NCBI GenBank assembly: GCA_034620365.1
Contig: JAQGEQ010000186.1
Span: 1,612,001 to 1,676,000 of the forward strand
Length of the DNA: 64,000 nucleotides
Direction: 5' to 3'
Source: Pegea sp. RAD2-039
Lineage: Eukaryota > Chordata > Thaliacea > Salpida > Salpidae
Every line of letters begins with the position of its first letter. Positions within the stretch are counted from its first letter, which is position 1. Below, piece by piece: positions 25,736 to 64,000 of this stretch. Position numbers and translations under genes: made by a program. The notes under the pieces were generated by a model that worked only from the letters and a program-made list of their open reading frames with translations, had not been told where the DNA came from and ran no database searches.

Positions 25736-25899
25736 AAGTTGCATATTTTAGTAATAAACAAAAGTTATATACTAATAGAAGTTTTAAGGATTTTCAAAAA
25801 ACTTTGATTGAAAAATTGAATTTAAAAATTAAAATGTTTAGACTTTAACTAGTAGCAAACTCATATAGATAAACGAAATTTGTATGTTTTTATTTATTT

Positions 25900-29510: not shown

Positions 29511-29514
29511 AGAT

Positions 29515-30570: not shown

Positions 30571-30576
30571 GTGATA

Positions 30577-31790
30577 GTATCAAGCCCTCTTATTGCACTC
30601 TCAAATCCATCTCTAACCAGGCTGTCAACAACGAAGATCAAATATGTGTTATATGATAGTAGTTCCAAGCCTTCCAAACCGACTCCCGACTGCCAACATC
30701 CCATACATAATTATTGTACATTGAAACCTAAAGTCTTGTTTCAATTTAAACTTGAACAATACATTATTTTCCAGCAGCATCTAGTCATAACATAATAGCT
30801 CTAGCAAGGTACTTCTAGATATCTATTTTGATCGTAACAACCTATTTCATATATCCATCGTAGTTCCCATTTCATATCAAACTTACCACCTCTCTCTCCT
30901 CTTAGAGAATTAATTAATTAATCTAAAAATTTACAAACCCATCTTTCTAAGCCAAAAAAGTCCCTGTGCTCTCTGCAACGAATTGAAATTACAAGGGGCT
31001 GAAGATCCATTAAAAGTTTCAAACTCTCCAGATCAAGCTTTATTTGATCTTTTCAACAATAAACTCGGAAACAAAGCACTTCTACTCTATTTACTGCAAC
31101 CCGTTTAAGTTCATTTTTGTGTCTTCGGCGGACTAAAGAACTGTGGGTGGTACGAAGCTGGTTTACCAAAAATGTGCTTTCTGAATAAAAGAACAACGCA
31201 AAAAACAACAATAAAAATTATAGCAAGTTTGTTGTCTCGCTAACACTATCCTCTCTTCCGCTACAGTTGTAACAACTCTAATCTTGGAAAAATGCTAACA
31301 TCTCTCCCGTCGCCGTTTGTGATTGCTCTCGTCTTGCTCTTTCTCGCAGCAAGAAAACTTAGGCCTCCTGATCGATCCCTGATTAAATAAATAAGAAATA
31401 TTAGCTGCTCCGCCGGGCATCCTTCAGTATCACTTGTTGGTTAAGGACTTCTTCAAAGTTTCATCCTCTAACAACCGTTACACATCCCTGTGTTCTGCTA
31501 CTGTGACACTCCTAAAATTACAGTGCTTGGCCATACATACCAAACTGCAACAAAAGTCTTCTACAGATTGACTTGACTTCTGCTTCTCTGTGCGTAGCAG
31601 ATGATGCAACAAAATTTCATTGGGTTTCCTTATATACAACCGTTCCAGCGTCGCATCAGCTTCTACATAAATCTGATAGCTCTCAAAGTTCTGGTACACT
31701 TCTAGGGCTACACAATTCACAGGCACAGCCCATTTGTCCTCATCATTCCCATTCGGCACACACCTGTCTATGAAAATGATAAATTTTTTC
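30577..31790 (-). mobile_element. LTR-retrotransposon relic, copy 1 (LTR-like and gag)
   Basis: The minus-strand ORF at 31759-31478 (starts MPNGNDEDKWAVPVNC; contains FESYQIYVEADATL and VEDFCCSLVCMAKHCNF) has the helix pattern of Ty3/gypsy-type gag capsid proteins, including the short run before a CNF/CDF segment. The zinc-knuckle and protease part retained in the copy at 48.2-49.1 kb is deleted here at about 31400-31440. The segment 30577-31380 is shared between both copies and is probably LTR or leader sequence, though no terminal repeats could be proven. Confidence 0.55.
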
Positions 31791-31879
31791 TTTTAGTGGC
31801 TCTACTCCATGGCTGCCGACAGACTATTCCGGTCTATGAATAGCTTGCTTTGTTTCAAGAGTCGATCCATTTTTTTTTA

Positions 31880-32240
31880 TAAAAAATCTTTGTAACAGTG
31901 AAAAGATACTAAACATACGTATTTGATTAGAATCTTATTCAAATGTATACTAGGTATAGCACAAAGAAATTATCTTAACCGTTGCTAAGATTTCAATGTA
32001 TTAAGTTCCAATGACGCCGAAACAACTGGCAACAATTCGACAAAGAAATTTATTTTACAAATTTGAATAAATTTTATGATAATGATTGGTTATATAGAGC
32101 TTTATTAAAGCGACTAAAAGCAATAGTAAGTATACCAAGTATACGCGCTACCCACAACAGTCTGTTGCCGAATAACAACGATAAATACAAGAATGGCAAA
32201 TAACACATTTACTTCAGAGACAAAATATTGTACTGTTATG
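31880..32240. repeat. LTR-like repeat related to 43.8-44.2 kb and 61.0-61.2 kb
   Basis: TATATAGAGCTTTATT, then CGACTA, CGCTA, GCCGAATAAC and AACACATTTACTT, occur in the same order as in the segments near 43960-44190 and (inverted) 60950-61100. The order is shared but identity is only moderate. It lies next to gag/pol relics in each case, so it is probably a decayed LTR. Confidence 0.4.
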
Positions 32241-32379
32241 CCACAAGGTACACAGAAATTAAAGGTCACTTCTGACGAACCTTCTTTATCAACACAAGCT
32301 TGCCTCGTGCAACAAAATTTGCACCATTGAGGTTCTAGGTGCTCCTTACTTAAAGTTCGGATTTTCTTGTTTTATATTT

Positions 32380-34600
32380 ACCTACCTGCTACCCTTTCAA
32401 ATTAATGATGGCGTCACTACAAAGTCATAATGAAGGTTTTGAAGTTTGTTATGCGTCCTGAGTTAAACTCCTAAAATCGTTTAACTTGGATAGTGATAAT
32501 CCTACTTCAACCATTGTAAGTCATAACTTACTTGATGCCAAAAACCTATCTTATGTGCTTACTTTTTTCAACTCAAGTTAGTGGTAATACTTTGGATCTT
32601 CTTATCACATCAAAACTCAAGAATACTATCTACGTTGATCAAAAAACTAATCATCATTTCAGACTTCATCAAACTTTTTCCATGAACGTTGAAACTCCGA
32701 TCAAAGGTAATTTCTATCGTGGAAATTATGATGATATTAATGAATTTATTCAGGTGGATTTCTGTCTTTAACTCTACTGACGACACCAGTACTATTTACT
32801 GACGATTTACTAACATCGTTAAACAGCTAATTGATAAATTTATAATTTTTTATAGCGTCAATAAAAAACCACATATGCCCAAATATTTAAAGAATTTACA
32901 ACATTTAAAAAACCTCCTATACAAACAAACTAAAACAGACCCTTCCATCAAATCTTTGTACAAAGATCTTTGTATAGTTTACAAAAAATCTATTTCTAAT
33001 TTCTACTTAGAAGGAGAAAAGGCAGTATTTTTTTCATCCTGCAAGAAAATGTTTTTTGGTTTCATAAATCACAAACTTAAGGCGAGGTTTTAAATGTCTC
33101 CCTTGATAACAACAACCAGCTAGTGATAGAACCAGAAAATAAAGCTGAGTTGCTAAACAATCAATTTAATAGAGTTTTTATAACTGATGACAGCAATACC
33201 CCTTCCTTTTCTTACTCCGACATTCTTACAAGTGTCTCTGAGATGATAGATCTTCACATAACAGTCGATATGATAAATAAGGCTATCACTTCTTCTAAAA
33301 TCATTATTTTCCAACAACCCGGATCAGTTTCCCGCTTTGTTATCGAGAAAGACTACTTCTTCTTTATCGCCACCTTTATCTCTACTCTTTAAAATCTTTC
33401 TTAGGCGAAGAAGAGTTCCATAACTTTGGAAGAAAGCTATCTGCAGAACTCAAGAACACATCATTCACAATCATATGACCAGTCATTTACTGGAGCACCA
33501 TCTAATATCTGATGTCCAACATGGCTTCCAATACTTATGACATCAGGTATCTCGATTTTCCTAAGGGGTTTGATTCTGTCCTACACAAAAAGCTCATTAT
33601 TGGTTTACAAAATCAATAGCTTTATCTTAAAGTGGATTTAAGATTATTTATTTGGTAGAATCCAAACCAACCGTGCTGAAAGATCTTCATCTATTCCTAG
33701 TAAAGTCACCAGTGGGCCTCTTCAGGGCTCCACACTGGGCCCCTTCTGTTTTTAATTTTAATTGAAGACCTCATCAGAAGACTAGTAGCAATAGATGATA
33801 TCAGTGTGTTTGTGTATGCAGATGACTTCAAACTATTATCTTGTTATCCTCCAAAACTTCAAACAACTCTAAACGTTGTAGAAAACTGGTATATGAACTG
33901 GCAGCTCAGAATCCAGTTCACAAAGTCTAAACTTAAAACTTTCTTCCTTCAACCAGCTGCACATTTCTCGAATCAATATTTCATCAATGGATTTATTAGT
34001 CCACAAATATTTTTGGTTAGAGACCTTGACATTACCCTGTCATCTGACTTTAATTTGCACAATTGTATTTTAAAATCTTTACAAAATCATTCAACCTTGT
34101 TTACCTTATTGTTAAGACTTTTAATTCTAAGAATGCATACTTCTTTTTCAACTTCTTTAAATTGTACGTACGTTTAAATCTTGAATATAATACAGTGCAT
34201 AGATGCCATATGACATTAGTGATATATTAAGTAGTCAATCTGTTCAGGCAAAATTTAAGAGACTGGTATGTAGAGGAAACTTTATGATGAACATGATCTC
34301 AGCTACTTGAATTTAGATACGTTGGAAATTCGACGGATTAAATGGAACTTCATTCTTATTTTTAAATTTTTTCACAATTTTGTTGACTTTCAATTCAATA
34401 CTTTCTATTCCATTAGTCTTTCTCATAACTCAAACGACAAATATTACCTTCATAAGCCAATATCACCTGGTACTTTAATTAGAGCAATTTGTTCTCATAT
34501 CGGACAGTCAGTACATGGATCCAACTGCCATCAGATATTAACATGTCAAAGTATATTACTAACATACATGTTATCTAAATTATTTGCATCCAAATAGAAA
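32380..34600 (+). mobile_element. CR1/L2-like LINE relic, copy 1
   Basis: Plus-strand fragments in order: the end of the endonuclease domain (FSTQVSGNTLDLLITS, 32570), the linker (AELLNNQFNRVFITDD, 33145), a degraded RT palm (LQGSTLGP near 33725), MFVYADDFKLLSCYPPKL at 33806, and the C-terminal region (LHKPISPGTLIRAICSH, 34450). Stops and frameshifts interrupt every domain. The 3' tail seen in the partner at 51150-51195 is missing. The palm retains YADD. Confidence 0.8.
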
Positions 34601-34730
34601 ACCTAGATCATTCATAAAATGTAAAGAAAATATCAAAATTTTGGAAATTTATTTGAAATCACAGGCTAAATTAGTTCGAAACAAAAAAATTGAAATAAAA
34701 TGAAATTATCACTAAGAGTTTCAAGAAAAG

Positions 34731-37700
34731 TTAAACATGTGTCCTCATTTCTTCAATTACTTCTTCTAGGTCTTCTGCATTGGAATCTGGTCTTGTATCT
34801 GATCTGAAAGTAGTTTTCGAAAATAGTTATAATGTAAAGAAGTTTTTTTGTGTCAAACTTCTGTAGTATCAAAGAAACTTTTTAGAAGTCGAAAAATAAT
34901 CAGATTATTATAAATTTAATTTATTTTTTTTAACAGATTAAACATGAATTTAGAAAAATTTTCAGAGAAGAAGTTTTTTAACTCTGTTCAATTTTTCAAA
35001 TTTGTTTGTTGGGAAAAATATTTAAATTAAATGAACTTTTTGAATTTTAATCAAAAAATTTCTAAAATATAGAAAAAAATTACAAACTTTGTAAAACTAA
35101 TCTTAAGGAAGCTTAGAAACTTGCCAAAATCAAAACTTATGTTTACAAACTTATGCAAATACTGTTAAAACATTACAACCAAAGCTAAGAGGTAACGTTG
35201 TTTAAAGTTTTTAATTTTAATCTTCACTAAAAATCTCTAATTCTCACAAATTTGATCCTTTGTAAAACGCCTCTGCGTCATCCAAATTAGTTGGAAGTTG
35301 TTTTCCAGTTGTCTCAGGTAAAAATAACGCCAGTCCACCAGCTAAAAGGGCTAAAATTCCAAAAATAACCTGCCAAAAAAATTGTTTTCAGAAAAGTAAA
35401 AAGATTATAACAAAACTTCAAATATTTGATTGCTTTGACGTCAAATAAATGGAAGCAGCTAAAAAATAGCAAGATTGTTTGATCTGTAAATCAAATATTT
35501 ATCGGCAGATATCGAAATTTATTATTAAAACCGTTTAACATCGTAAATATTATTAACTACAACTTTCAAACTACAAGTGTATCAAGCCGACAATCTTTAG
35601 TGATTTTATTGGAGGTTAATTTGATTAAAAGTCTTTGATTAAATCTTTTTTACTTAAATCAAACAATGAATAAAAAGTTACAAATATCTGCTTTCTTCAA
35701 GTTTGAGAAAATACCAGATTTAAAAGCTTTTAGAGAATCTAAAATTAATTCTTATATTTTTGATTGATTTTTTATTTAATTTCTGCTAAATTAAAAAATA
35801 AAAAAATGTTTCCAAATTTATTTTTAGTTAATTTTCCGCAAATTTTTCAACTTACACTTGTGAGCCAAGGGATTGTATCTTGCAATTGCAGTGTGAAAGG
35901 TGTTATGATACTTCCGACTCTAGCAGCCATAGAGCCCAGGCCAACAGCTGTGCTTCTAAACATACAATTTAGCTGCAATTTTGAAAGCAACTGGAGATAA
36001 TTACCTGACTATTGTTGGGTAGAGTTCAGCTGTAAAGTTGTAAGCAATTGCAAATGATCCTGAGACAGCCATTTTTCCGATTAAAGCAAAAACTGTTCCA
36101 CAAGTTACAAGGGCTGCAAAAGATGAAAAAGTGTTACCAAAATTGTTTATCGAAAATGAAAAGTTGCTTTTGAATTTCTTATTGCTGATTCTCTTGTTTG
36201 ATTTTCCAAACGTTTTACAGACAAATGTTTTTTTAACTTTATTTATCTTTAATTTTATAATTTCAGTTTAAATTGTTGAATTAATATTTCAGTTTAAATT
36301 GTTGAATTAGTATTTCAGTTTAAATTGTTGAATTAATATTTCAGTTTAAATTGTTGAATTAATATTTCAGTTTAAATTGTTGAATTAATATTTCAGTTTA
36401 AATTGTTGAATTAATATTTCAGTTTGCTTCTTTTAATATTCTGTTTTTTAAATTGTATTAAACACAAGAAAAAGGGTTTACAAATTGTTTTTAAATAAAA
36501 CTGAAATGTTTTAATTTGCTTGAAGTTTCACCTTGATTATCAGCAGCATAATGATTAAAAACAGTCGAAGAAAGACATCCTACGCCACCCAAGATTAGGC
36601 ATCCACACAAAAGTGATTTTCTCCCAAACCGATCCATCGTAATAGATATGAAAATGTAAGCTACAAATTCAACTAATCCATTTAAAGTATTGTTCAAAAA
36701 ATCGCTTCCTGAAAATTTATACATTTAAAATTTTAAATTATAAATTGAAAATGATTTGATCGCATATTTCACAATTAAATGCAAAAAATTAAGTAACCTT
36801 AATTTTATTTCTTGAAAATTTCTGAAATTAACTAAATTAAGTTAGTTAAGAGAAGCTAGTTAAATGTGTCTTCAGCACCTTCAACCACCAAGCGCAATAA
36901 GTTTTATTTTCTAAGTCAGTCAGCCGGGAGACTTTTACTATTAAAGCTGTTAATTAACTCACTGTCTTTGATTAAATCTTAAATATGTTATCTAACCAGA
37001 GTCACTGGTTCACAAATCAGACTTTTTATAACAAGCATACAACTAAATTGAATATTTTCTAACCTGCCAAAGAACCAGCGTTCAATGAAAGACCATAATA
37101 AACCAGAGAATTGACAAACCAATTGAACATAATGTTTAAAGTCACTAGACGCATTTTGGGTCTTTTGAAAAGTTCCCATGGCGAATAATTTTCTTGAGTT
37201 CCAGTGTTTTGCTGGAGACAACATTTGTAATCTTATAAAATTTTCAATTTCTTTTTACTTGAATTTGTTTTCCAGATTCTTCTGCCTTCTTCCAAACCTC
37301 TGAACTTAAAGTCCTTCCATTGTATTTGGCCATTTTTTCACAGATTTTTATTGCCTTTTTATTCTGGTTTTTATCAAATAGCCACCTGTAAATTTTGTTA
37401 TCATCTTTAAACTTTTAAAATCCAATTTTAGATTTTTTAAACATTAAAATCAAATATTAAAAGTTTTCCAACAACAATAATAATAAACTTTTAACGAAAA
37501 AATAAGAGAATTTATAAAATAATCAATTTCTCACCAATTTAGTTTTCAGAAAATAAAAATAAAAATGAATATTTAAGAAGTTATAAACTTGATAAAAAAC
37601 AATTTTCATTTCAGTCAGATGATCAAAAACTAGTTTTAGAACCTCGGCGATTCAGGAATAAAAATCCAGAATAACAGAAAAGGAAGAGGAACAAACGAAA

Positions 37701-40264
37701 TAGCAAATTGTAGATCTCTCCAATCCCTCCAATTATATGCAAATCCTGAGAGACACATGTATCCTAAAGCAAAGAAGAACTGAACAAAGATGCCGGCCGC
37801 GGTTCTCCACTTTTCTCCGACGATTTCAACAACTGAAAGATATCTATGGTTTTAAAAGTCCTCAGCACCTTAAGACACTGAGGTGCTTACAAAGGTTTTA
37901 TAAAGTTTTATCAGCTTAATTTTGGGATTTGATCCTGAGACGTTGGAGCTAAAATTAGGAAAACCTGAACCCCGAACTATTTTCTGTCTATTTTTTATTT
38001 GAATATGTAAGTTTTAGCAAATTTATAGATTTTGAAAATATTTTGTTCAATTTAACAGATCTAAAATGCTTCATTGAACAGTTTAAAAGTCAACGAGAAT
38101 GAACAAATGATTCCCATAAACTGATTTCATTGAGAAAGACTCAAAATTGTAAAAAATTAAGTAAAATTAAGTAAAGAGAAAAATGTAATTCAGTGAACCC
38201 CAACACCAATTTCAAGAAATGAGTCTTCAGAAGTTTAGTTAGAACATCATTTAGTTTGCATATCATCACATAGTGGTAAAATATTTATAAAGAATATATA
38301 ATACAATAATTATTTAGTAATTATCAAAAACTTTTAAGAACAATTAATTTATAAATAATAAAAAATTCAGATATTCAAATTCAGTCTGACGACTGTCTAA
38401 CGACCTCAAATTTAATCCTTAGCAACCATTGATGAATTTGAAACTAAAACTTACTATAAACAAAAGATCCGATAAATCCAGCTTGCAAGAAAAGAGCCAG
38501 ACAGAACCTCAACGCTGCAAATGTAACGATATTTGGTGAATAAGCACAACCAATTCCAATTCCACTTAAAGCTATTTGAGTCACCAACATAACAGGAAGA
38601 CGCCCGTAGCTGACGAATAATCGCAAAAATTTATTCCAGTAGAAACTTGTTAATCCTAGAAAATGTTTTTATTATGTCTGAACGTTGGTTTTACCGATCT
38701 ATAACATTTCCACCAATCACAGAGCTGAATAAGATTCCACAAAAGTAAACAGCTGTTACGACTGTACCGATAATCGTTTGGTCACAAACGAGGTTCCACT
38801 AAAATAAATACATATTCTATTAAATTTCATTTTATTTTTTGGAAGACAAAGAACCTGCCCGCCAATCACCAACAAGGTAACAGGTTTAAGAAAATACAAA
38901 ATACTTCAAATGAAGTCACTACAAATCATTATCACGAAAATATCTTCGAACCTCTGTAGTAACTGTTGAAATATAGACTGAATCATCATACCAATAGCTC
39001 TGGTCACAGCTAATCACTGAAATATCATCGCTTGGTGGATAAGGTTCGATGCAGCTTAAGCTTGGCGGTTCGCAAGATGTTAAATTGTAATTATAACGTG
39101 TACAAGAGTCAGGTTTCTGTAAAAACAATTGGATAAATTATAATTTGAAGTTTAAATACTTTTTGTTTGCCAAAAAAAACTCAAGTTTTCTAAACAAATA
39201 CATTGAACTTAAATTTCTGATCGACTAAATACCCCTGTCACTGAGTTTAGGGGTAACATTCTAGTCTTGATCTCTTCTTCTGTAAGATTATAAAAATCTT
39301 TGTTGTCTATTGGATCGACATTACATCTGAAATTATTATCATTTTAGTGTTGTAAGTTGTACAAATTAGTTTACCTGTGATCAGGTAGAGCTGCTAAAAA
39401 AACAGATGCAACTTGATTCATTCCTTGAAAAAATTTGAATAAGTTTTGTGAAAATCAATCTGACTGTAAAGATGCTTATCACTTTAAAATATCAAGTTTT
39501 AGTTTTTTTATTTTGTATTTAAGTTTAAAATGTAAAGATCTCTTTTACGTTGAAGAGGTCTTTTTTAAAGTCTCATTAAAGCTTTCAACTATCTTTTGGG
39601 GTTTTGATATTTTATAATAAATTAAATAAATTAGGCTGATAATAAACCAGTTACGCTGATTCAAACTAGTAGTAAGCTATGTAACAACCAGTAAAAACAA
39701 TCTAATAACCAGTAACAACTATTTAAGAGTTGTCTAGTAACCAAGATTAAATAATAAATGTATTCAAAGTTAGTCTTCAGACTAGCAAATCGATTATTCA
39801 AACAAATTGGCAAAGGCATTTTTCAAAAAATTTTTAATGAAAATGTTAAAATTTTAGACCAAATAAATTTTTGGACTTTTTAGCTTTGTCATGAGCACCG
39901 TGAACAATCAAATGAAAGATTTGTTTATATAGGCTGAAGAAGTTTCAAATGTCAAAAAATCAAATTTGAAATCTGTTTGTACTTTAGACTAAAGAATTGA
40001 TGATGTCAATTAATTTGAATGAAATTATTTTAATTGCTGTATAAAAGTTTTTTTACCTGCTGGTAAAGTAATCCAATAAACTAAAGCAATTAGAAATATC
40101 TGATATTTTCCAAGCTGCCCAATTTCTTTTAATAAAACATCAAAATCATAGAAAGTAGTTTTTTGAACCGCACACTGTGTTTTGGTGTTTTTATGAATTT
40201 CGTTTTTAACTTTTTTGTCTTCATCAAAAGTAAAAGCATTATTCTTCCAACCTACTTCAGACAT
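34731..40264 (-). CDS. SLC22-like organic ion transporter, copy 1, 606 aa, 14 exons
   Basis: Exons on the minus strand: 40264-40057, 39423-39375, 39326-39233, 39116-38952, 38798-38695, 38609-38455, 37832-37643, 37385-37259, 37211-37064, 36708-36532, 36113-36005, 35955-35856, 35369-35248, 34803-34731. All have GT..AG borders and matching phases. It begins MSEVGWKNNAF and has an SLC22 opening (FYDFDVLLKEIGQLGKYQIF), a large Cys-rich ectodomain after the first span, then WNLVCDQ, VIDRYGRLP, IPESPRWLF, MDRFGRKSL and LPETTGKQLP, the family's ordered signatures over about 12 spans. SLC22 proteins are plasma-membrane transporters of organic cations, zwitterions or anions; the substrate cannot be told. 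The last exon is used only if the GTGAGA donor at 35247 is spliced. Otherwise translation stops at 35244 after SNL. It shares all exon borders with the copy at 51.3-56.6 kb. Confidence 0.92.
36261..36425. repeat. 26-bp minisatellite in transporter intron, copy 1
   Basis: Six full units of TTTCAGTTTAAATTGTTGAA plus TTAATA, then a partial seventh, with one A/G difference. It lies in the intron between exons 10 and 11. The equivalent array at 52926-52985 has only two full units and a partial. Confidence 0.92.
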
Positions 40265-41280
40265 ATTTCTAAAAAAAATAATTAGCTACTTTTAAAATCA
40301 CTTATCATCTTAACTAGTAAATTAAAATTTTTTATCGAGCTACGAACTATATTCGCCTAAGTATAAGCTTCATAAAATAAAAAATAAAACAAAATTCGAA
40401 AAATTTAAAACAAAACCTTCGTGATCTTTTAAAGACACTTGAAACTCCTCAAATGTTTCTCAGATCAAAATTTCAGGTAAAGTTTTGAATTTCTTTTTTA
40501 ACTTCTTTTAAAACAACTGATTAAGCGTCGATGTGATTTATATGTATGTGCTTGTAAAGCATATATTTCTATTTGTGATTACAAAAAGATTTTTAGTTGA
40601 TTATTAACTTAAATGACAAAAGTTAAAAAACTTGAAATTATCAAATAACAGATTTAGACTAAAGCTTGAGGTTTGTTTTTATTTTCAACAGAATCAATAA
40701 AACTTAAAATTTATTGAAAGTTAATTTGATGTTTATTCAAAACTAATAAATCATATTTCTAAATGTCAAAATTTATTGTTTATCTATCTCAAGGAAAAAT
40801 ATTTTTTTGGTTATTTCTGAATAATGCTTTTAAACAAGGTTATTTTTAAACAAACTTTTTACGATTGTTCTAAAAGTAAATAGTTTAAACATCGTCTTGT
40901 TTGTGTTTGCTTGTAAATAATTTGCAATGTAAAATCTGCAATGTACTTTCTGTTGTTCAATAAAACGTTGTTAAAAAAATTAAAAAATGATTTAAGTCGA
41001 TAACTTATCAAATAAATATACATCAACTTAAAATTGATATATTTATTCTTATCTTTCGATTTCAGTAAAAGCATTTAATCCAAACATTAAAGAAGTATTT
41101 TTTAATTTAACAGAGGGTTATCAGATTTTAAATAATTTTTTCATTTTTAAACGGACAATACTTAAAAAAGCTTTTCAAAACTTATAAAATTTATTCGTAC
41201 AAAATTGCTATTTTAAAATTAATTACCTTCGCTGTAAAAATTTGGAATATAATGAAACATTTTTCAAAATTTACTTTTTA
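40265..41280. other. AT-rich stretch upstream of transporter copy 1
   Basis: Upstream of the transporter ATG and conserved in the second copy (56625-57480) apart from indels. It probably contains the promoter. No recognisable gene. The right part (40951 onward) also reappears inverted at the window's right edge. Confidence 0.5.
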
Positions 41281-41284
41281 AGTT

Positions 41285-42300: not shown

Positions 42301-42319
42301 TGAACGCTCATTGGTCCAA

Positions 42320-43530: not shown

Positions 43531-43706
43531 AAAGAATAAATATGAATTATTCTACTATTATCGTAGAAACGAAAAAAAATAAATTTCATTAATAAATCAG
43601 TTGATAAAAGCAACAAGCTTGCTTTTAAAAGAACTTCATCAACAACTAAACCAGAAGTCTTATTTGAAGATAAGAGTACTGCAAAGATGAACAACTTTTT
43701 TGTCAT
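43521..43706 (-). CDS. Small ORF with signal-peptide-like start, left arm
   Basis: ATG at 43706 opens MTKKLFIFAVLLSS followed by LVVDEVLLKASLLLL. The basic start and hydrophobic core resemble a secretory signal. The same start occurs in the right arm (61344), with different downstream sequence after an indel. It may be exon 1 of a secreted protein or part of the surrounding retroelement; no downstream exon was found. Confidence 0.3.
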   Translation of the reverse strand: MTKKLFIFAVLLSSNKTSGLVVDEVLLKASLLLLSTDLLMKFIFFRFYDNSRIIHIYSFYL

Positions 43707-43779
43707 AAATTTAATTGCAGCTAAGCTATTTTAACTTGTGACTTTTTTTCTATTTTTGAAATAATCTTCGGAAAAAAAG

Positions 43780-49410: not shown

Positions 49411-49411
49411 C

Positions 49412-51200: not shown

Positions 51201-51330
51201 ATATTTTAGTTTAAAAACTTATTTCATCCATAAAATATAAAAGAAAAAAATATAGATTTTTGGAAATTTATTTGAAATCACATATTTAAAATTTATCACT
51301 AAGAGTTTCAAGAAAAGTTAAACATTTGTC

Positions 51331-54300
51331 CTATTTACCTTCAATTACTTTTTCTAGGTCTTCTGCTTTGGAATCTGTTCTTGTATCTGATCTGAAAGTA
51401 GTTTTCGAAAATAGTTATAATGTAAAGAAGTTTTTTTGTGTCAAACTTCTGTAGTATCAAAAAAGCTTTTTAGAAGTCGAAGAATAATCAGATTATTATA
51501 GATTTAAATTATTTTTATTAACAGATTAAAAATGAATTTAGAAAAAATCTTAGAGAAGAATTTTTTTTAACTCTGTTCAATTTTTCAAATTTGTTTGTTG
51601 GGAAAAATATTTAAATTAAATGAACTTTTTGAATTTTAATCAAAAAATTTCTAAAAAATAGAAAAAAATTAAAAACTTTGTAAAACTAATCTTAAGGAAG
51701 CTTAGAAACTTGCCAAAATCAAAACTTATGTTTACAAACTTATGCAAATACTGTTAAAACATTACAACCAAAGCTAAGAGGTAACGTTGTTTAAAGTTTT
51801 TAATTTTAATCTTCACTAAAAATCTCTAATTCTCACAAATTTGATCCTTTGTAAAACGCCTCTGCGTCATCCAAATTAGTTGGAAGTTGTTTTCCAGTTG
51901 TCTCAGGTAAAATTAACGCCAGTCCACCAGCTAAAAGGGCTAAAATTCCAAAAATAACCTGCCAAAAAAAATTGTTTTCATAAAAGTAAAAAGATTATAA
52001 CAAAACTTCAAATATTTGATTGCTTTGACTTCAAATAAATGGAAGCAGCTAAAAAATATCAAGATTGTTTGATCTGTAAATCAAATATTTATCGGCAGAT
52101 ATCGAAATTTATTATTAAAACCGTTTAACATCGTAAATATTATTAACTACAACTTTCAAACTACAAGTGTATCAAGCCGACAATCTTTAGTCATTTTATT
52201 GGAGGTTAATTTGATTAAAAGTCTTTGATTAAATCTTTTTTACTTAAATCAAACAATGAATAAAAAGTTACAAATGTATGCTGTCTTCAAGTTTGAGAAA
52301 ATACCAGATTTAAAAGCTTTTAGAGAATCTAAAAACTAACTTTTTGTAGCTAAAATAAGAATATTTTAAAAACGTTTTCCTTAAAATAAAACAAATTAAA
52401 TGTTTCTGATAGGATTAATGGTTATATTTTTGATTGATTTTTTATTTAATTTCTGCTAAATTAAAAAATAATGTTTCCAAATTTATTTTTAGTTAATTTT
52501 CCGCAAATTTTCCATCTTACACTTGTGAGCCAAGGGATTGTATCTTGCAATTGCAGTGTGAAAGGTGTTATGATACTTCCGACTCTAGCAGCCATAGAGC
52601 CCAGGCCAACAGCTGTGCTTCTAAACAGACAATTTAGCTGCAATTTTGAAAGAAACTGGAGATAATTACCTGACTATTGTTGGGTAGAGTTCAGCTGTAA
52701 AAATGTAAACAATTGCAAATGATCCTGAGACAGCCATTTTTCCGATTAAAGCAAAAACTGTTCCACAAGTTACAAGGGCTGCAAAAGATGAAAAAGTGTT
52801 ACCAAAAATATTTTTCGAAAATGAAAAGTTGCTTTTGAATTTATTATTGCTGATTCTCTTGTTTGATTTTCCAAAAGTTTTACGGACAAATGTTTCCTAA
52901 CCTTTATTTATCTTTAATTTTATAATTTCAGTTTAAATTGTTGAATTAATATTTCAGTTTAAGTTGTTGAATTAATATTTCAGTTTGCTTCTTTTAATAT
53001 TTTGTTTTTTAAATTGTATTAAACACAAGAAAAGGGTTTACAAATTGTTTTTAAATAAAACTGAAATGTTTTAATTTGCTTGAAGTTTCACCTTGATTAT
53101 CAGCAGCATAATGATTAAAAACAGTCGAAGAAAGACATCCTACGCCACCCAAGATTAGGCATCCACACAAAAGTGATTTTCTCCCAAACCGATCCATCGT
53201 AATAGATATGAAAATGTAAGCTACAAATTCGACTAATCCATTTAAAGTATTGTTCAAAAAATCGCTTCCTGAAAATTTATACATTTAAAATTTTAAATTA
53301 TAAATTGAAAATGATTTGATCGCATATTTCACAATTAAATGCAAAAAATTAAGTAACCTTAATTTTATTTTTTGAAAATTTCTGAAATTAACTAAATTAA
53401 GTTAGTTAAGAGAAGCTAGTTAAATGTGTCTTCAGCAACTTCAACCACCAAGCGCAATAAGTTTTATTTTCTAGGGCAGTCAGCCGGGAGACTTTTACTA
53501 TTCAAGGTGCTAATTAACTCACTGTCCTTGATTAAATCTTAAATATGTAATCTAACCAGAGTCACTGGTTCACAAATCAGACTTTTTATAACAAGCATAC
53601 AACTAAATTGAATATTTTCTAACCTGCCAAAGAACCAGCGTTAAATGAAAGACCATAATAAACCAGACAACTGACAAACCAAATAAACATAATGTTTAAG
53701 GTCACTAGACGCATTTTGGGTCTTTTGAAAAGTTCCCATGGCGAATAATTTTCTTGAGTTCCATTGTTTTGCTGGAGACAACATTTTGTAATCTTATAAA
53801 TTTTTCAATTTCTTTTTACTTGAATTTGTTTTCCAGATTCTTCTGCCTTCTTCCAAACCTCTGAACTTAAAGTCCTTCCATTGTATTTGGCCATTTTTTC
53901 ACAGATTTTTATTGCCTTTTTATTCTGGTTTGTATCAAATAGCCACCTGTAAATTTTGTTTTCATCTTTAAACTTTTAAAATCCATTTTTAGATTTTTTA
54001 AACATTAAAATCAAATATTAAAAGTTTTCCAACAATAATAATAATAATAAACTTTTAACGAAAAAATAAGAATATTTATAAAATAATCAATTTTTCACCA
54101 ATTTAGTTTTCAGAAAATAAAAATAAAAATGAATATTTAAGAAGTTATAAACTTGATAAAAAAGAATTTTCATTTCAGTCAGATGATCAAAAACTAGCTT
54201 TAGAACCTCGGCGATTCAGGAATAAAAATCCAGAATAACAGAAAAGGAAGAGGAACAAACGAAATAGCAAATTGTAGATCTCTCCAATCCCTCCAATTAT

Positions 54301-56624
54301 ATGCAAATCCTGAGAGACACATGTATCCTAAAGCAACAAAGAATTGAGTAAAGATGCCGGCCGCGGTTCTCCACTTTTCTCCGACGATTTCAACAACTGA
54401 AAGATATCTATGGTTTTAAAAGTCCACAGCACCTTAAGACACTGAGGTGCTTACAAAGGTTTTATAGGGTTTTATCAGCTTAATTTTGGGACTTGATCCT
54501 GAGACGTTGGAGCTAAAATTATGATAACCTGAACCCCGAACTATTTTCTGTCTATTTTTTTTTTGAATATGTAAGTTTTAGCAAATTTATAGATTTTGAA
54601 AATATTTTGTTCAATTTAACAGATCTAAAATGCTTCATTGAACAGTTTAAGAGTCAACGAGAATGAACAAATGATTCCCATAAACTGATTTCATTGAGAA
54701 AGACTCAAAATTGTAAAAAATTAAGTAAAATTAAGTAAAGACAAAAATGTAATTCAGTGGAACCCAACACCGATTTAAAGAAATGAGTCTTCAGAAGTTT
54801 AGTTAGAACATCATTTAGTTTGCATATCATCACATAGTGGTAAAATATTTATAAAGAATATATAATACAATAATTATTTAGTAATTATCAAAAACTTTTA
54901 AGAACAATTAATTTATAAATAATAAAAAATTCAGATATTCAAATTCAGTCTGACGACTGTCCAACGACCTCAAATTTAATCCTTAGCAACCATTGATGAA
55001 TTTGAAACTAAAACTTACTATAAACAAAAGATCCGATAAATCCAGCTTGCACGAAAAGAGCCAGACAGAACCTCAACGCTGCAAATGTAACGATATTTGG
55101 TGAATAAGCACAACCAATTCCAATTCCACTTAAAGCTATTTGAGTCACCAACATAACAGGAAGACGCCCGTAGCTGACGAATAATCGCAAAAATTTATTC
55201 CATTAGAAACTTGTTAATCCTAGAAAATGTTTTTATTATGTCTGAACGTTGGTTTTACCGATCTATAACATTTCCACCAATCACAGAGCTGAATAAGATT
55301 CCACAAAAGTAAACAGCTGTTACGACTGTACCGATAATCGTTTGGTCACAAACGAGGTTCCACTAAAATAAATGCATATTCTATTAAATTTCATTTTATT
55401 TTTTGGAAGACAAAGAACCTGCCCGCGAATCACCAACAAGGTAACAGGTTTAAGAAAATACAAAATACTTCAAATGAAGTCACTACAAATCATTATCACG
55501 AAAATATCTTCGAACCTCTGTAGTAACTGTTGAAATATAGACTGAATCATCATACCAATAGCTCTGGTCACAGCTAATCACTGAAATATCATCGCTTGGT
55601 GGATAAGGTTCGATGCAGCTTAAGCTTGGCGGTTTGCAAGATGTTAAATTGTAATTATAACGTGTACAAGAGTCAGGTTTCTGTAAAAACAATTGGATAA
55701 ATTATAATTTGAAGTTTAAATACTTTTTGTTTGCTAAGAAAATCTCAAGTTTTCTAAACAAATACATTGAACTTAAATTTCTGATCGACTAAATACCCCT
55801 GTCACTGAGTTTAGGGGTAACATTCTAGTCTTGATCTCTTCTTCTGTAAGATTATAAAAATCTTCGTTGTCTATTGGATCAATATTACATCTGAAATTAT
55901 TATAATTTTAGTGTTGTAAGTTGTACAAATTAGTTTACCTGTGATCAGGTAGAGCTGCTAAAAAAACAGATGCAACTTGATTCATTCCTTGAAAAAATTC
56001 GAATAAGTTTTGTGAAAATCAAACTAACTGTACAGATGCTTATCACTTTAAAATATCGAGTTTTAGTTTTTTTATTTTGTATTTAAGTTTAAAATGTAAA
56101 GATCTCTTTTACGTTAAAGAAGTCTTTTTTAATGTCTCATTAAAGCTTTTAACTATCTTTTGGCGTTTTGATATTTTATATTTTAAAATCAGTTAAATAA
56201 ACTAGGTTGCAAGTAAACTAAAATAAATTTTTGGACTTTGTAAGCTTTGTCATGAGCACCGTGAACAATCAAATGAAAGATTTGTTTATATAGCTGAAGA
56301 AGTTTCAAATATCAAAAAGTCAAATTTGAAATCTGTTTGTACTTTAGACTATAGAATTGATGATGTCAATTAATTTGAATGAAATTATTTTAATTGCTAT
56401 ATAAAAGACTTTTAACCTGTTGGTAAAGTAATCCAATAAACTAAAGCAATTAGAAATATCTGATATTTTCCAAGCTGCCCAATTTCTTTTAATAAAACAT
56501 CAAAATCATAGAAAGTAGTTTTTTGAACCGCACACTGTGTTTTGGTGTTTTTATGAATTCCATTTTTAACATTTTTTTCTTCATCAAAAGTAAAAGCATC
56601 ATCCTTCCAACCTACTTCAGACAT
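51331..56624 (-). CDS. SLC22-like organic ion transporter, copy 2, 602 aa, 14 exons
   Basis: Exons: 56624-56417, 55987-55939, 55890-55797, 55680-55516, 55362-55259, 55173-55019, 54396-54207, 53946-53820, 53771-53624, 53268-53092, 52778-52670, 52620-52521, 51958-51837, 51391-51331. Each of the first 13 has exactly the same length as its partner in copy 1, and all splice borders are kept. Family signatures are intact (WNLVCDQ, DRYGRLP, PESPRWLF, MDRFGRKSL, LPETTGKQLP). Changes include KNN to KDD and DKK to EKN near the N-terminus and NWFVNS to IWFVSC in a membrane span of exon 9. The tail ends EKVIEGK rather than EEVIEEMRTHV. Both copies therefore look functional. Substrate unknown; alternative stop after SNL if the last intron is not spliced. 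Confidence 0.92.
52926..52990. repeat. 26-bp minisatellite in transporter intron, copy 2
   Basis: Two full units and a partial of the same 26-bp motif that occurs six times in copy 1. One unit has AAGTTG instead of AAATTG. Confidence 0.9.
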
Positions 56625-57490
56625 ATTTCTAAAAAAATAATTAGCTACTTTTAAAATCACTTATCATCTTAACTATTAAACTTAATTTCTTATCGAGCTA
56701 CGAACTATATTCTTTTAAAACAGCTTAATCGTCGATGCGATTTATATTGATCTGCTTTTAAAATAGATATTTTTATTTGTGATTACAAAAAGATTTTTAG
56801 TTGAATATTAACTTAAATGACAATAATAATAAAAAATTGAAATTATCAAATAACAGATTTAGTATAAAGTTTAAGGTTTGTTTTTATTTTCAACAGAATC
56901 AATAAAACTTAAAATTTATTGAAAGTTAATTTCATGTTTATTCAAAATTAATAAATCATATTTCTAAATGTCACAATTTATTGTTTATCTATCTCAAGGA
57001 AAAATATTTTTTTGGTTATTTCTGAATAATGCTTTTAAACAAGGTTATTTTTAAACATACTGTTTACGATTGTTCTAAAAGTAAATAGTTTAAACGTCGT
57101 CTTGTTTGTGTTTGCTTGTAAATAATTTGCAATGTAAAATCTGCAATGTACTTTCTGTTGTTCAAATAAAACTTTGTTAAAAAAATTAAAAAATGATTTA
57201 AGTCGATAACTTATCAAATAAATATACATCAACTTAAAATTGATATATTTATTCTTATCTTTCGATTTTAATAAAAACATTTAATCTTAACATTAAAGAA
57301 GTATTTTTTAATTTAACAGAGGGTTATCAAATTTCAAATATTGTTTTCATTTTTAAACGGACAATACTTAAAAAAGCTTTTCAAAACTTATAAAATTTAT
57401 TCGTACAAAATTGCTATTTTAAAATTAATTACCTTCGCTGTAAAAATTTGGAATATAATAAAACATTTTTCAAAATTTACTTTTTAAGTT
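56625..57490. other. AT-rich stretch upstream of transporter copy 2
   Basis: Duplicate of 40265-41285 with a deletion of about 150 bp near 56710. Presumed promoter region; nothing else recognised. Confidence 0.5.
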
Positions 57491-58320
57491 GCTTGTATTT
57501 TAGAAAATGATTGTAGTTATCACAAAGCAACATCTTTGCTTAGCATTGTAGATAAATCATTTGTTCGTGTGTTATTTGCTCGCCTGCAAAAATTGACTGA
57601 AAGAATATATCTTAAGTCACGATACGGTTTCACACCAAACCGCTTTACTATGGATACGATTTTTCTGTGTGCCAACTACAGAAACAAATGCAAAGACCAA
57701 CATAAGATTTTGTATAATGTGTTCATTGACCTTACCAAAGCTTTTGACTTTGCAAATAGAGAGGCTCAGTTCTCGATACTGCTGAAGGCTAGCTACCTTT
57801 GTAAGCCTCTTTAATATGGTGAAAACATTTGACAAGAACATTAAGAAAATAGTTTAATATGATGGATACTGCGTTGAACTATTTACCATCAAAAACGGAG
57901 CAAGACAAGGATATCTCCTTATCTCCAACGTTCTTTAGGATTTCCTTCCCAATTTTACTAAAAATAGCGTTTCATGCGTCTACTAGAGAAATCTACTTTC
58001 ATTCAAGGTTTTATGGAGGTCTAATTAATGCATCAAGTCTAAGGCGAAAAATACGGTAGAAAAGATTACCATTTGTGACCCTCTAATTGCCAATCACGCA
58101 GCAATTGTTACAAATTCAGCAAAAAACCTACAGATGCCGATGGACCGATTTTCATCTTGTACTTTGAGGCTGTTAATAATTTTATCTATCTTTGTTGAAA
58201 AATAACATCATCAAAATCAATAAAAGCCGAAACCATTAGTCGTATCGGTAAAACGTTCGCTACATTTAAAAACTTTTTAAGAAAGGGCTTTCCTTAGTTG
58301 TAAAATGCGACTACTAACCA
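57490..58320 (+). mobile_element. RTE-like LINE reverse transcriptase relic, copy 2
   Basis: Same blocks as at 41285-42120: LLSIVDKSFVRVLFARL at about 57536, NVFIDLTKAFDFANRE at about 57720, LSPTFFRISFPILLKI at about 57920, and ETISRIGKTFATFKN near 58240. It ends at the duplication junction, so the 3' part present in copy 1 is missing. Confidence 0.75.
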
Positions 58321-58480
58321 CGGTACAAAAGCTACAAACCATTGAATTTTTGATAATTTTTCACAAATTAAGCCACTAAAAAGACTTTAATAACTTATTT
58401 AGAGCTTTTTTCCTACGACTTATTAGAGGTAGGACTTTTAAAATTTAAACTACTAAATTAATAGGACAAACAAATTTAGC
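58320..58480 (+). repeat. Short direct duplicate of 44790-44900
   Basis: ATTAAGCCACTAAAAAG, TTATTTAGAGCTTTT and ATTAATAGGAC occur in the same order as at 44817-44890. It is wedged between unit A copy 2 and the inverted arm, and marks a complex rearrangement breakpoint. Confidence 0.7.
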
Positions 58481-58964
58481 ACATAAGATTTTAAAAATCA
58501 AAATATTAAAAACAATTTTAAGACATTTGAAATTAGTTGATGCGTTTTGCAGCTTGACTAGTATCATTTCAAGTATTATTTTTAAAATGACAAAACTATT
58601 GCTAATCAAAAAATAGGTATAATAGCACACAACCATTTAACTTCTAAAGTGAGGATATTGAGAATAAAAACTTTTTACTGAAATAGTCAACATCATCAAT
58701 TCAAAACAAAATTTGTATAAACTATAAGCTGTTTAGTTTTCCTGTTTAAAGGGAGTTTCCTTTGCAGGGGCTTTACTTTGTTGTTTCAAATCTAATATAT
58801 AAGCTTTGAAAAAGTACAAAGTTTCTATTTAAGTTTTCTATTTGATACTTTCAATATATAAACAAATTCTAGTTTCATTAAAAAAAGAACTTTTGTATTA
58901 AATAAAATATTATTTAATTGTCGTTTTTAGGTTTTTTGTTTTACAATACTCAAAAGTCATAAAA

Positions 58965-59611
58965 ATGTTTCTGAAACTACTTACAGTATTGATGTTTTCA
59001 TCGTTGGTTGAAGAAATGTCTAAAAGGTTGGTGTACTTAAGTTTTTACTGATTACTAAAGTGGTTTACACCAGTTCTAAAAATAGCTCTTAATTTATGAA
59101 AATAATAGTTTAATTTTTTGGTCAATTTAAGGATATCTGTGAATAAAACTGAAATTGTTTATAGTGACCCTGAGATTATGAATGAGCTGGTGGCGTTTAA
59201 TAAATTGGTGAAGAATATAGAGGTTTAGTAGCCAAAATTTTATTAATGAAAAGAATGTTTCTCTATTATGGATACTTTTTTAGAATCTTGATGAAAAACA
59301 ATTTCACAAAGATTTTGCTGTCGAATTAAAACGTCTTGCTGTTGCTATTAAATCAGTTATTAGCCCAAAATTAATGAAGAAAATAAATTCAACAATCTTT
59401 AAAGGTTTCTCACCGTTGAACTTTGATCGAACTTTTATTTAGTTGCTAATAATTTATTAATCTTTAGCTAAGCCTGGATTAAAAACGAAAATAATGGAGA
59501 TGATGAAAAAACTCAAGGAAAATAATAGAGCGTAAGTTTTAGTTTCTATGTTTCTTTTAATACTTTAGATTTAATTATAAGCTAATCTCAGAAAAGCCTG
59601 TTAACTTTTAA
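58965..59611 (+). CDS. Small secreted-type protein of unknown family, right copy, 126 aa
   Basis: Exons 58965-59026, 59132-59222, 59284-59404, 59468-59531 and 59569-59611 total 381 nt in one frame with GT..AG borders. Residues 1-18 (MFLKLLTVLMFSSLVEEM) have a short hydrophobic core like a signal peptide. The mature part has SDPEIMNELVAFNKLV, FAVELKRLAVAIKSVISP and a Lys/Met-rich KTKIMEMMKKLKENNRA, predicted mostly helical from residue pattern, with no Cys, then a tail ending SEKPVNF. One N-glycosylation sequon is NKT, another NST. I do not recognise the family. The inverted twin at 45495-46120 shares all splice sites, which supports the model. A candidate lineage-specific secreted protein; function unknown. 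Confidence 0.72.
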
Positions 59612-60200
59612 ATAAAAGATTTTAATTAATTTCTAGTTATGCCTTTATTCTTCAAATTGCATGAGATAGAATTTTGGTTTTAATATTCTTATTGATTATT
59701 TAGGTTCAAATAATGAATTAAAAATGTTTGTATGGTCAAAGAGATGGATAATAATCCTTACTAGTCTGCTATTTAATCCTAAAAAACTATATGATATATT
59801 TAGCTTCTGTTTCACTTGAATAAAATATACTATATTGAGTTTTAGGAGTGATTTTTTGTGTATTATCAGTTTGGTAGACTACAGAAATTGCTTAAGACTT
59901 ATATTTTACAAGTGAAGCTAATTTAATTTCACTAAAAGCACTGTGCTTACAGTACAAAGCATAAATTTAGTCACAGCAGCATCTTTTAATTTTAGCCTCT
60001 TATTAGTTAATCCAAGATTGATTAACTATTTTCATAATAATATGTAAAAAAGTTTGTTAAAAGCTTGAGTATCTAATGAATATGCCAATCACTATACGAT
60101 TAACATTCGTCTTAATTAAGATTATTATTATTATTTATTATTTAAGATAAAAGAAAAAGAAAATCTTTTAAGCTTTCAAATATGTGCTAAGTCTATTCGT
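59612..60200. other. Gene-free stretch downstream of the small secreted gene
   Basis: Inverse of about 44910-45494. AT-rich, probably including the 3' UTR. No other feature recognised. Confidence 0.5.
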
Positions 60201-60450
60201 CCTATTAATGTAATAGTTCAAATGTTAAAAGCTCTAAATAAGTTGTTAAAGCCTTTTTAGTAACTTAATCTGGGTTAGTTTTATCAATAAATCAATGGAT
60301 TGGTGTGGTATATTTGAATTTGGTAACCTTAGAATAATTTGCTGCTTATGTAAACTTTTCATCATTTACTACTGTATACACCTAGTTTATTCTGTAGCTG
60401 ACTGTGGTAAGTTCGTAGATGTACGGTTGTTGCTAGTCGCATTTTACAAC
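60200..60450 (-). mobile_element. RTE-like LINE end fragment, right arm
   Basis: The inverse of 44640-44900. It contains the CGCATTTTACAAC block shared with the other RTE-like relics at 42100, 58300 and 62850, followed by diverged sequence. The 90-codon open frame over it (minus 44791 in the left arm) is on the opposite strand and has no family match, so it is not called as a gene. Confidence 0.4.
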
Positions 60451-60949
60451 TGAGTAAAGCCCTCTTGAGTTATTATCATTACAATTTGATAATTTATAAA
60501 ATTGTATTCTATACTTTGAGCTTTACACTAAGTAGCCTTCTAAAAATATTTCGGTCAAAAAATCGTTTGATATTTTTATTTTTAAATAACTTTCAAAGAC
60601 TTTTATTTTATTTTAATAAACTTTAATTTTTTTAAGATTTCTACTTTATATTTGTACACATCATGTTTTTATTTTTTAAAAATTTGTAATGTATTGCTTA
60701 AAACCACCATACAAATATTTGATTAAATATATGAAGTATTCACTTTACATTTCTACTTGTGAATATATATGTTCTATTATATCCATCCCAGTATAAACAT
60801 AAAGCAGAAATTTGGCAAGTTGAATGTGAATCAAAAGTAAAAAAATAAATTTATAAAATAATTTGTAAATTATTTCTTAATAATTCAAAAAAAAATAAAA
60901 TAAAACATTTTCATTACTGTGATATATTCGAAATGTAAAACAGTAAAGC

Positions 60950-61260
60950 AATTAAACGCTAAAGTAAATGTGTTGAATGTAACTAATGTATGAATGACAG
61001 TCATTCGGTAATAGGCTTGTTGGACGATAGTGCTTATCGTTAATATATTTATCGCTGTGCTAGTCGCCTTATTTATTTGAATAAAGCTTTATATATATAA
61101 TCATTTTTATTACAATTACTGAGTTTGTATATTTGTGTTTCTGAATTTTGAAATAATTGTGAAATAAAGATATAAGAAGTTTTGTTTTCAAGTTATGTTT
61201 TTTGCTTATATAATTTGTTCTTATTAAATGTCGCTCAACATTTTGCTCTACATCAATTGA
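60950..61260. repeat. LTR-like segment, right arm
   Basis: Inverse of 43780-44220 without the LINE-tail insertion. Contains GAATAAAGCTTTATATAT. Confidence 0.4.
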
Positions 61261-61343
61261 TATAACTTTCCTTTTTTTCTGAAGATTATTTCAAAAATAG
61301 AAAAAAAGTCACAAATTAAAATAGCTTAGCTGCAATTAAATTT

Positions 61344-61475
61344 ATGACAAAAAAGTTGTTCATCTTTGCAGTACTCTTATCTTCAAATAACACTTCTTGT
61401 TTAGTTGTTGATGAGGTTATTTTAAAAACAAGATTGTTGCTTTTATCAGATCAATCATTTAAATCATTTGTTTGA
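61344..61475 (+). CDS. Small ORF with signal-peptide-like start, right arm, 43 aa
   Basis: Begins MTKKLFIFAVLLSS, then NNTSCLVVDEVILKTRLLLL, and stops at 61475. The start is shared with the left arm (43706), where Gly replaces Cys and the frame continues differently after an indel. A donor-like GAG|GTTATT inside suggests it could be a first exon. Unproven. Confidence 0.3.
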   Translation: MTKKLFIFAVLLSSNNTSCLVVDEVILKTRLLLLSDQSFKSFV

Positions 61476-61799
61476 ATTCATAAGTTTTTAAATAATAAAG
61501 AAGTTCATCACTATCTCCATTAACATGTCACTTACTCCCAGCAGAAAAATAAGATTTCTTTGTGGCTTAATTAAATCGATATTGGTTTCCATGAAACCTG
61601 ACCATTTGTAAGTTAATTTCTCGAATCAACTTCAATAATCGATGAGTTTAATTTTCTGCTTACCAAGGTGGTGTTTTCACCGATTTTTATCAAATTTTTT
61701 CAATATTTTATCAACTGATATATTAATGGAATTTAAATTTTTTCGTTTCTACGATAATAGTAGAAGAATTCATATTTATTCTTTCTATTTATGAAAGGC

Positions 61800-62700
61800 C
61801 ATTATAGTCGAGTCAGTTTTTATCATTGTATCATTTATTTACTGGATCGCCGAAGAAATTAAGCCATGCAACGGTGGACGTCTCGATAAAAGGCATGATA
61901 GTTAAAGCTCGTATTAATATCAGATCCTCGAAAAGCTTTGTAAGTGGAAAGGTTGTTCAGAACTTCAAGATTCACTCGAAATAAATTTAAAGTAGAGATT
62001 CCTCAGTCATCTAATGACAACTCTGTTAGACAGATAGAGTGTTATGATCCAGAACGTTTGAGACTTCAAATAAAACTTCAGCCCTCAACAAATCCAAAGT
62101 TATTGGAGGAAGCAATGAGATTTTTGCTCACCCATTAAGATGAACTTGTAAATTTTCGGATTAGCTCCGTTAATTCTCTATGAGAGGAAAGAGAGATCCG
62201 AAGTTTTGAAAATAATTACAGAAAAATAAAAGGGTACATGGGTGTATCTTGATAATATTATTATTTGGGGCAACTCATTAGGTGAGTTACAAAGTCATTA
62301 TGAAAATATCTAAAATCTGTGGCAGACAGAAAGATGACTTTACGCGAATGTAAAAAGTATTTGGAGAAATGTAAGGGAATCTCAAGAGCAGTAAGATTGG
62401 TGCTGAAGTCCGGAGAGTTACATGATGAGAATTGGGAGAAACTGAAGAAGAGGATCACTCAGTCAAGATCACAGTTTATTAATGAAGTTTTACTATTTGC
62501 AGCGCAATACAATGCAAGTGATGTAGAGACTACTTTTGATGGTTCACGAACCAAAGGTTGCATCCGAAAAGCAGGATAAACAGCGGCAGAGGGTTTGTAA
62601 ATTTCTAAAGATGTACCTCTGAAGCCACAGATTGGACCAATGAGCGTTCATGGTGGTCGCTGTAAAAAGTGGTGTTTGCTGTTTGGCCCAACTATTCGGC
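61800..62700 (+). mobile_element. Retroelement protease and pol relic, right arm
   Basis: Plus-strand inverse of 42320-43530: KARINIRSSKSFVSGKVV at about 61902 (protease loop without its Asp-Thr-Gly), VYLDNIIIWGNSL at 62238-62276 (RT box), and an open stretch 62319-62579 ending NASDVETTFDGSRTKGC, which resembles an RNase H-type block (ASD.....FDG...GC). A 370-bp protease segment seen in the left arm is deleted at about 62018. Confidence 0.6.
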
Positions 62701-63660
62701 TGAGGAGACTGTGATATATTTGGGTTGTATATCTGAAGAGTATTTTACCGCTCACGTAAATATGTTGTCAAACTATTATGGTTTATTCCAAAATACTAGT
62801 TCCTTCTATCGTTGTTCATTCAGTCGTTGCTTACCGTTGTTAGTAGTCGCATTGTACAACTAAGGAAAGCCCTCTCTTAAAAAGTTTTTAAATGTAGCGA
62901 ACGTTTTACCGATACGACTGATGGTTTCGATTGCTTTTATTGATTTTGATGATGCTATTTTTCAACAAAGATAGATAAAATTATTAACAGCCTCAAAGTA
63001 CAAGATGAAAATCGGTCCATCGGCATCTGTAGGTTTTTGCTGAATTTGTAACAATTGCTGCGTGATTGGCAATTAGAGGGTCACAAATGGTAATCTTTTC
63101 TACCGTATTTTTCGCCTTAGACTTGATGCATTAATTAGACCTCCATAAAACCTTGAATGAAAGTAGATTTCTCTAGTAGACGCATGAAACGCTATTTTTA
63201 GTAAAATTGGGAAGGAAATCCTAAAGAGCGTTGGAGATAAGGTCATATCCTTGTCTTGCTCCGTTTTTGATGGTAAATAGTTCAACGCAGTATCCATCAT
63301 ATTAAACTATTTTCTTAATGTTCTTGTCAAATGTTTTCAACGTATTAAAGAGGTTTACAAAGGTAGCTAGCCTTCAGCAGTATCGAGAACTGAGCCTCTC
63401 TATTTGCAAAGTCAAAAGCTTTGGTAAGGTCAATGAACACATTATACAAAATCTTATGTTGGTCTTTGCATTTGTTTCTGTAGTTGGCACAAGAAAAATC
63501 GTATCCATAGTAAAGCGGTTTGGTGTGAAACCGTATCGTGACTTAAGATATATTCTTTTAGTCAATTTTTGCAGGCGAGCAAATAACTCACGAACAAATG
63601 CTTCGTCTACAATACTAAGCAAAGATGTTGCTTTGTGATAACTACAATCATTTTCTAAAA
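62700..63660 (-). mobile_element. RTE-like LINE reverse transcriptase relic, copy 3 (inverted)
   Basis: Minus-strand blocks: LLSIVDEAFVRELFARLQKL (63622-63560), SRYGFTPNRFTMDTIF at about 63530, LSPTLFRISFPILLKI at about 63230. A one-base deletion near 63492 shifts the frame after DTIFL relative to the other copies. It includes the 3' part (62700-62850) that copy 2 lacks. Confidence 0.75.
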
Positions 63661-64000
63661 TACAAGCAACTTAAAAAGTAAATTTTGAAAAATGTTTCAT
63701 TATATTCCAAATTTTTACAGCAAAGGTAATTAATTTTAAAATAGCAATTTTGTACAAAGAAAATTAAATAAGTTTTGAAAAGCTTTTTTAAGTATTGTCC
63801 GTTTAAAAATGAAAAAATTATTTAAAATCTGATAACCCTCTGTTAAATTAAAAAATACTTCTTTAATGTTTGGATTAAATGTTTTTATTGAAATCGAAAG
63901 ATAAGAATAAATATATCAATTTTAAGTTGATGTATATTTATTTGATAAGTTATCGACTTAAATCATTTTTTAATTTTTTTAAAAAAGTTTTATTTAAACA
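63660..64000. other. Inverted start of a third unit A
   Basis: The inverse of 40951-41290, the sequence lying upstream of transporter copy 1. It is cut off by the window edge, well before the expected transporter ATG. Confidence 0.8.

Follow-up and report, generated by a model that had tools for sequence, protein, structure and literature searches.

An SLC22-like transporter gene within a three-copy segmental duplication of direct and inverted units in the salp Pegea sp. RAD2-039

The sequence analysed here is a stretch of 64,000 nucleotides (the window, C8:1612001-1676000) from an assembly of 105.7 Mb in 387 contigs. A right flank of 30 kb and a left flank of 10 kb were added, and the window numbering was continued rightwards. 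The window alone, and then the window with its right flank, was compared to itself by BLAST; these 94 kb contain no N. Along the locus, the units follow each other in the order A1-B1-X1-A2, and then an inverted series of B3, A3, X, and a partial B that ends at 76,518. At Rfam gathering scores, no structured RNA was found within the window.

Unit A lies in direct orientation at 30577-42119 (A1, plus strand) and 47672-58325 (A2, plus strand). The two copies match in ten pieces of 84–98% identity, and the pieces from 34703 rightwards are 95–98% identical. Unit B (B1, 42120-46608, plus strand), which contains the body of an element T from about 44640, recurs inverted at 58485-62831 (B3', minus strand, with its far end at 58326-58484), with 97.9% identity over 4007 aligned columns. 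Unit X (X1, 46609-47671, plus strand) separates B1 from A2. The third copy of unit A (A3 or A3', 62832-74028, minus strand) is inverted, and only 62832-64000 is inside the window; there, 57159-58325 matches 64000-62832 at 96.8% up to the window edge. Right of the edge, inverted unit A continues to 74028, followed by inverted copies of X (about 74029-75100, minus strand) and of the last 1.4 kb of B (75100-76518, minus strand). A genome search found unit B at three places and unit X at two in the locus; elsewhere, it matched T-like sequence at two places on contig C15 and a short high-copy repeat.

These units form two overlapping inverted pairs. The outer pair consists of A1 and B1 (30577-46608) versus B3' and A3' (58326-74028), with arms of about 16 kb, a centre at about 52.3 kb, and X1 and A2 enclosed between the arms; the second pair is 45192-58325 versus 62832-76518. 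The original prediction, made from the raw sequence of the window, had described this direct-plus-inverted layout, and self-comparison of the window and its right flank bore it out, with copy coordinates in agreement to within about 20 bp. The palindrome centre had been placed correctly, near 52.5 kb. The size of 23 kb given for the palindrome-like locus holds for the part visible in the window but not for the whole duplicated locus, which measures about 43.5–46 kb.

Each copy of unit A carries an SLC22-like transporter gene. The gene in A1 (35244-40264, minus strand) is intact and encodes 580 amino acids in 13 exons between 40264 and 35244; 12/12 introns have GT and AG at their ends. The A2 gene (51833-56624, minus strand) is likewise intact with 580 amino acids. 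The A3 gene extends from the start codon to the end of the stop codon at 64690-69678 (L005:690-5678), on the plus strand in continued window numbering. All of its splice sites are kept, and a homopolymer in exon 2 has eight T versus seven in A1 and A2, which causes a one-base frameshift; this is possibly a homopolymer error of the assembly. An inverted SLC22-like gene had been expected roughly 0.7 kb beyond 64000. Extension and self-comparison of the sequence to the right of the window revealed the inverted transporter copy, with its start codon 690 bp past the edge, so the raw sequence had sufficed to predict a gene outside the window with an error of no more than about ten bases.

In a phmmer search, the A1 protein matched SLC22 chains over residues about 40–577, that is, over the whole transporter. 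The best solved relatives were OCTN2 (9pdq, E=1.8e-77), OCT2, SLC22A3, OCT1, and SLC22A6, and exon pieces matched Pfam Sugar_tr at 2.2e-16. By homology the protein resembles the SLC22 organic cation/anion/carnitine transporters, although its score against TIGR00898 (NCBIfam), 414.8 bits, lies under the curated cut-off of 550.75 in a library tuned for prokaryote annotation. From the sequence, we infer that the locus multiplies one predicted SLC22-family (organic ion) transporter gene.

The gene region 36300-40300 was found at three places in the 105.7 Mb, all at this locus. In this search, for which all eight first-look candidates were scored, the two further copies reached 5534 and 6705 bits (E=0), and matches on other contigs spanned no more than 57 query bases. 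This whole-genome search revealed neither a further copy of the gene at the locus nor one on another contig. Outside the locus, the closest relative seen in a protein search lies on C52:90-93 kb, with 35–73% identity exon by exon. An intron minisatellite of 26 bp has 6.4 units in A1 (36260-36425) and 2.4 in A2 (52925-52986); A3 has the shorter form, as in A2.

Several further features were observed in and near the locus. Copies of a LINE-like family, 76–94% alike and in both orientations, lie at 4387-5559, 10206-11197, 25889-27889, 32473-34589, and 49410-51018, with reverse transcriptase matches at 4981-5559 and 33704-34174. The family to which the stretch 28000-29640 belongs occupies at least 39 other places in the genome. 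At 6947-7894 (minus strand), an open frame contains the end of an Ist1 domain (PF03398, E=4.6e-18) and then a glycine-proline-rich repeat. A tandem repeat at 20977-21576 (plus strand) lies in a lysine/glutamate-rich open frame of 199 amino acids with a weak match to DUF4763 below the cut-off. Exon-like open frames that match domains of cartilage intermediate layer protein (CILP; PF23599, PF23730) adjoin the duplicated locus on the right (L006:4980-6225, minus strand, about 79.0–80.2 kb). The telomere-type repeat in the assembly is TTAGGG. A search for COX1 gave no hit, and an 18S sequence was located. The CILP-like frame and the many introns of the SLC22-like gene indicate animal DNA.

The left edges of unit A differ between the copies. 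A retroelement relic at 30414-31395, whose matches to L027 and L028 extend to either side of 30577, is unbroken at the left edge of A1 and continues leftwards to 30414. A2 and A3 start abruptly within that relic, adjoining X, and the X/A junction (47671/47672 at A2) is the same at A2 and at inverted A3. The relic at the A edges is multi-copy. L027 itself, a retroelement copy, lies about 127 kb beyond the right edge of the window (C8:1802501-1805500); it resembles A2 and A3 at 96–97% over the outermost 0.2–0.4 kb and at 77–81% further in, versus 90% over 0.7 kb for A1. No internal repeats were found at the left edges of A. Because A1 sits uninterrupted in the relic and A2 and A3 begin abruptly beside X, the X/A joint is the junction of a tandem duplication; judged from these alignments, the left edge of A1 is the ancestral side of the break. 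As inverted A3 also carries the X/A junction, the tandem step preceded the inverted step.

The inversion junction lies in a shared motif of 44 bp. This motif forms the right end of A (42076-42119, plus strand in A1) and also occurs at the end of element T. At 58284-58327 (plus strand), between A2 and the inverted series, it is a hybrid whose left part is A-type and whose right part is T-type; it matches 60463-60420 in inverted orientation with 86% identity over 44 nt, and partly also 44634-44666 in B1. The adjoining far end of T (58326-58484, minus strand) is an inverted repeat of 60181-60302, and T as a whole has inverted end repeats at 58284-58485 and 60181-60463. The 159 bp between A2 and B3' (58326-58484) resemble B1 44784-44924 at 78–84%; an unrelated insert or unique filler was ruled out on the basis of this resemblance to the end of T. 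The T-like copies on C15, 84–85% alike, are located at 600101-601865 (plus strand) and 613405-611641 (minus strand) and form a facing inverted pair about 10 kb apart. The copy fetched (L029) matches the T body and has no clear intact ends.

Outside the transposon-rich end of A, the copies are about 97% similar and are distinguished by private insertions and deletions. Over A2 50381-58325, identity is 96.8% for A1-A2, 97.4% for A1-A3, and 97.2% for A2-A3. In the left 2.7 kb of A, A2 and A3 are 98.3% alike, and A1 is rearranged, with about 70% identity to A2 and A3 in a forced alignment. A segment of 1.3 kb in A1 (31768-33069) is absent from both A2 and A3; the absence is read as a deletion, because from 32473 onwards the segment is part of a LINE copy that runs without a break in A1. 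Conversely, about 0.8 kb kept in A2 and A3 is missing in A1. In unit B, 94 bp at 44059-44152 of B1, which belong to a repeat that recurs at many sites on other contigs, are absent from B3'.

Exons diverged less than introns in the three pairs of gene copies (1.72 vs 3.08%, 1.55 vs 2.25%, and 1.32 vs 2.57%; Fisher p 0.004, 0.11, and 0.003). Each pair has 23–30 differences in coding sequence. Between A1 and A2, there are no indels in 1743 exon bases versus 12 in 2956 intron bases (Poisson p 0.0008), and dN/dS is 0.77. The private coding changes, counted without one codon that has three states, comprise 27 replacement and 9 silent changes, which fits the neutral expectation (p 0.69). The reading frames of A1 and A2 look maintained. 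Purifying selection on the protein may be indicated by the comparisons of exons with introns and of indels, whereas the count of replacement and silent changes gives no sign of it. Selection for extra dosage is unsupported, since the ratio of replacement to silent changes is as under neutrality.

The identity of the odd copy changes along unit A in a clustered manner. At 281 two-state sites from 34700 to 42119, 133 runs were counted versus 185.8 expected. When sites up to 20 bp from gaps were left out, there were 104 runs at 208 sites versus 138.2 expected, and when dense clusters were excluded as well, 90 runs at 175 sites versus 117.1 expected. None of 20,000 shuffles was equally clustered in any of the three tests. 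Over 506 bp (38811-39317), A1 and A3 are identical. The copies are mosaic, as gene conversion would leave them; the pattern is observed directly, and conversion is its probable mechanism. Taken further, the arms might belong to a living palindrome, with ongoing gene conversion, flips of the enclosed segment, and inversion forms that segregate, but we consider this rather unlikely.

We favor, and consider probable, a local segmental duplication that took two or more steps, a tandem duplication and then an inversion, followed by divergence and conversion. In the first step, a unit A-B-X of 17.1 kb was duplicated in tandem, with the left break within the old retroelement and a new X/A junction. 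In the second step, a stretch B-X-A-B, in which the X/A junction was already present, would have been placed inverted beside A2, by recombination or replication template switching between the inverted 44-bp motifs at the end of A and at the end of T in B. Either part of a three-unit array may have been inverted, or a two-unit array may have given rise to an inverted extra copy; both routes fit. Divergence to about 97% followed, with private gains and losses and, probably, gene conversion in short tracts.

The junctions themselves show the first of these steps, and the second would follow from them with less certainty. The start of B, which an exact inversion would lead one to expect after 76518, is absent there, so that one has to assume either an additional deletion or a different route. 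The motif, with 44 bp at 86% likeness, is also short for ordinary homologous recombination. Since A2 and A3 are no closer to each other than A1 and A3 over 50381-58325, support for a recent copying of A2 into A3 comes from the left end only.

Among the alternatives, an assembly artefact would mean that one contig was pieced together from divergent alleles of a locus with one or two copies, or that a chimeric inverted read was incorporated. Chimeric inverted reads often join at short inverted motifs, and the inversion junction lies at such a motif. However, three distinct and near-equidistant copies (96.8, 97.4, and 97.2%) do not fit two alleles, and the private indels and the private repeat insertion of 94 bp in B1 also argue against an artefact. 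Moreover, at E 1e-5 the right flank (76519-94000, 17.5 kb) has no match to the units or to the left flank of 40.6 kb (L008 and window 1-30576). The only parts of the right-flank stretch 76400-80400 with a second copy were its first 119 bases, part of unit B, and a short repeat. The left-flank stretch 28000-30570 is of little help against an artefact, as its first 1.6 kb is largely a common transposon. Overall, we give an artefact a small chance. A contig simply folded back on itself was ruled out, as the flanks are not mirrored and the copies are not identical.

Replication could also have produced an inverted triplication, by origin-dependent inverted-repeat amplification (ODIRA) or as a DUP-TRP/INV-DUP structure, from which a third direct copy on the right was later lost. 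Such loci, as described in PMC4689423 and PMC10766186, likewise have three copies, with short inverted repeats where the inversion is joined, here 58284-58327 and 60463-60420, and secondary loss is described in PMC10766186. In the locus studied here, however, the order is direct, direct, inverted rather than direct, inverted, direct, so that the inverted copy is last and not between the direct copies. The 17.5 kb beyond 76518 showed no direct remnant, and the X/A junction common to A2 and A3 needs a prior tandem step. An origin of this kind is quite improbable.

Transposition as the driving force, with T as a DNA transposon whose own ends became linked to the end of A2 in the manner of reversed-end transposition, agrees with the coincidence of the inversion junction and the end of T, with the inverted end repeats of T, and with the inverted pair on C15. 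No transposase frame was seen in T (no frame of more than 100 amino acids with a Pfam match), a target-site duplication was not established, and the one C15 copy fetched lacks clear intact ends; we consider this origin very improbable. Chance similarity was ruled out by the multi-kilobase length of the matches and their identity of 97% (E=0).

Segmental duplications are usually defined as copies of at least 1 kb with at least 90% identity. The units of this locus reach 96.8, 97.4, and 97.2% (A) and 97.9% (B), and with 36300-40300 at three places they are also low in copy number. Like other animal segmental duplications (low-copy repeats), they are longer than 1 kb and more than 90% identical, occur in direct and inverted orientation, and contain a gene, transposon relics, and mosaic sites. 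There is no basic difference from these, apart from junctions that are unusually readable. In C. elegans, young gene duplicates are reported to be adjacent in inverted orientation (PMC2728529). The adjacent copies in opposite orientation and the local origin are common to those duplicates and the present locus; unlike the duplicates in that account, there are three copies here, and the tandem step came before the inverted one.

The locus represents gene duplication of an ordinary kind in a well-preserved state. As one more young, local expansion of a gene by copying, it leaves the general view unchanged. Its value lies in the order of events, which can be read cleanly from the junctions: a tandem duplication, an inversion at a short shared motif, and then sequence exchange between the copies. 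If the arms were indeed those of a living palindrome, the transporter copies would evolve together.
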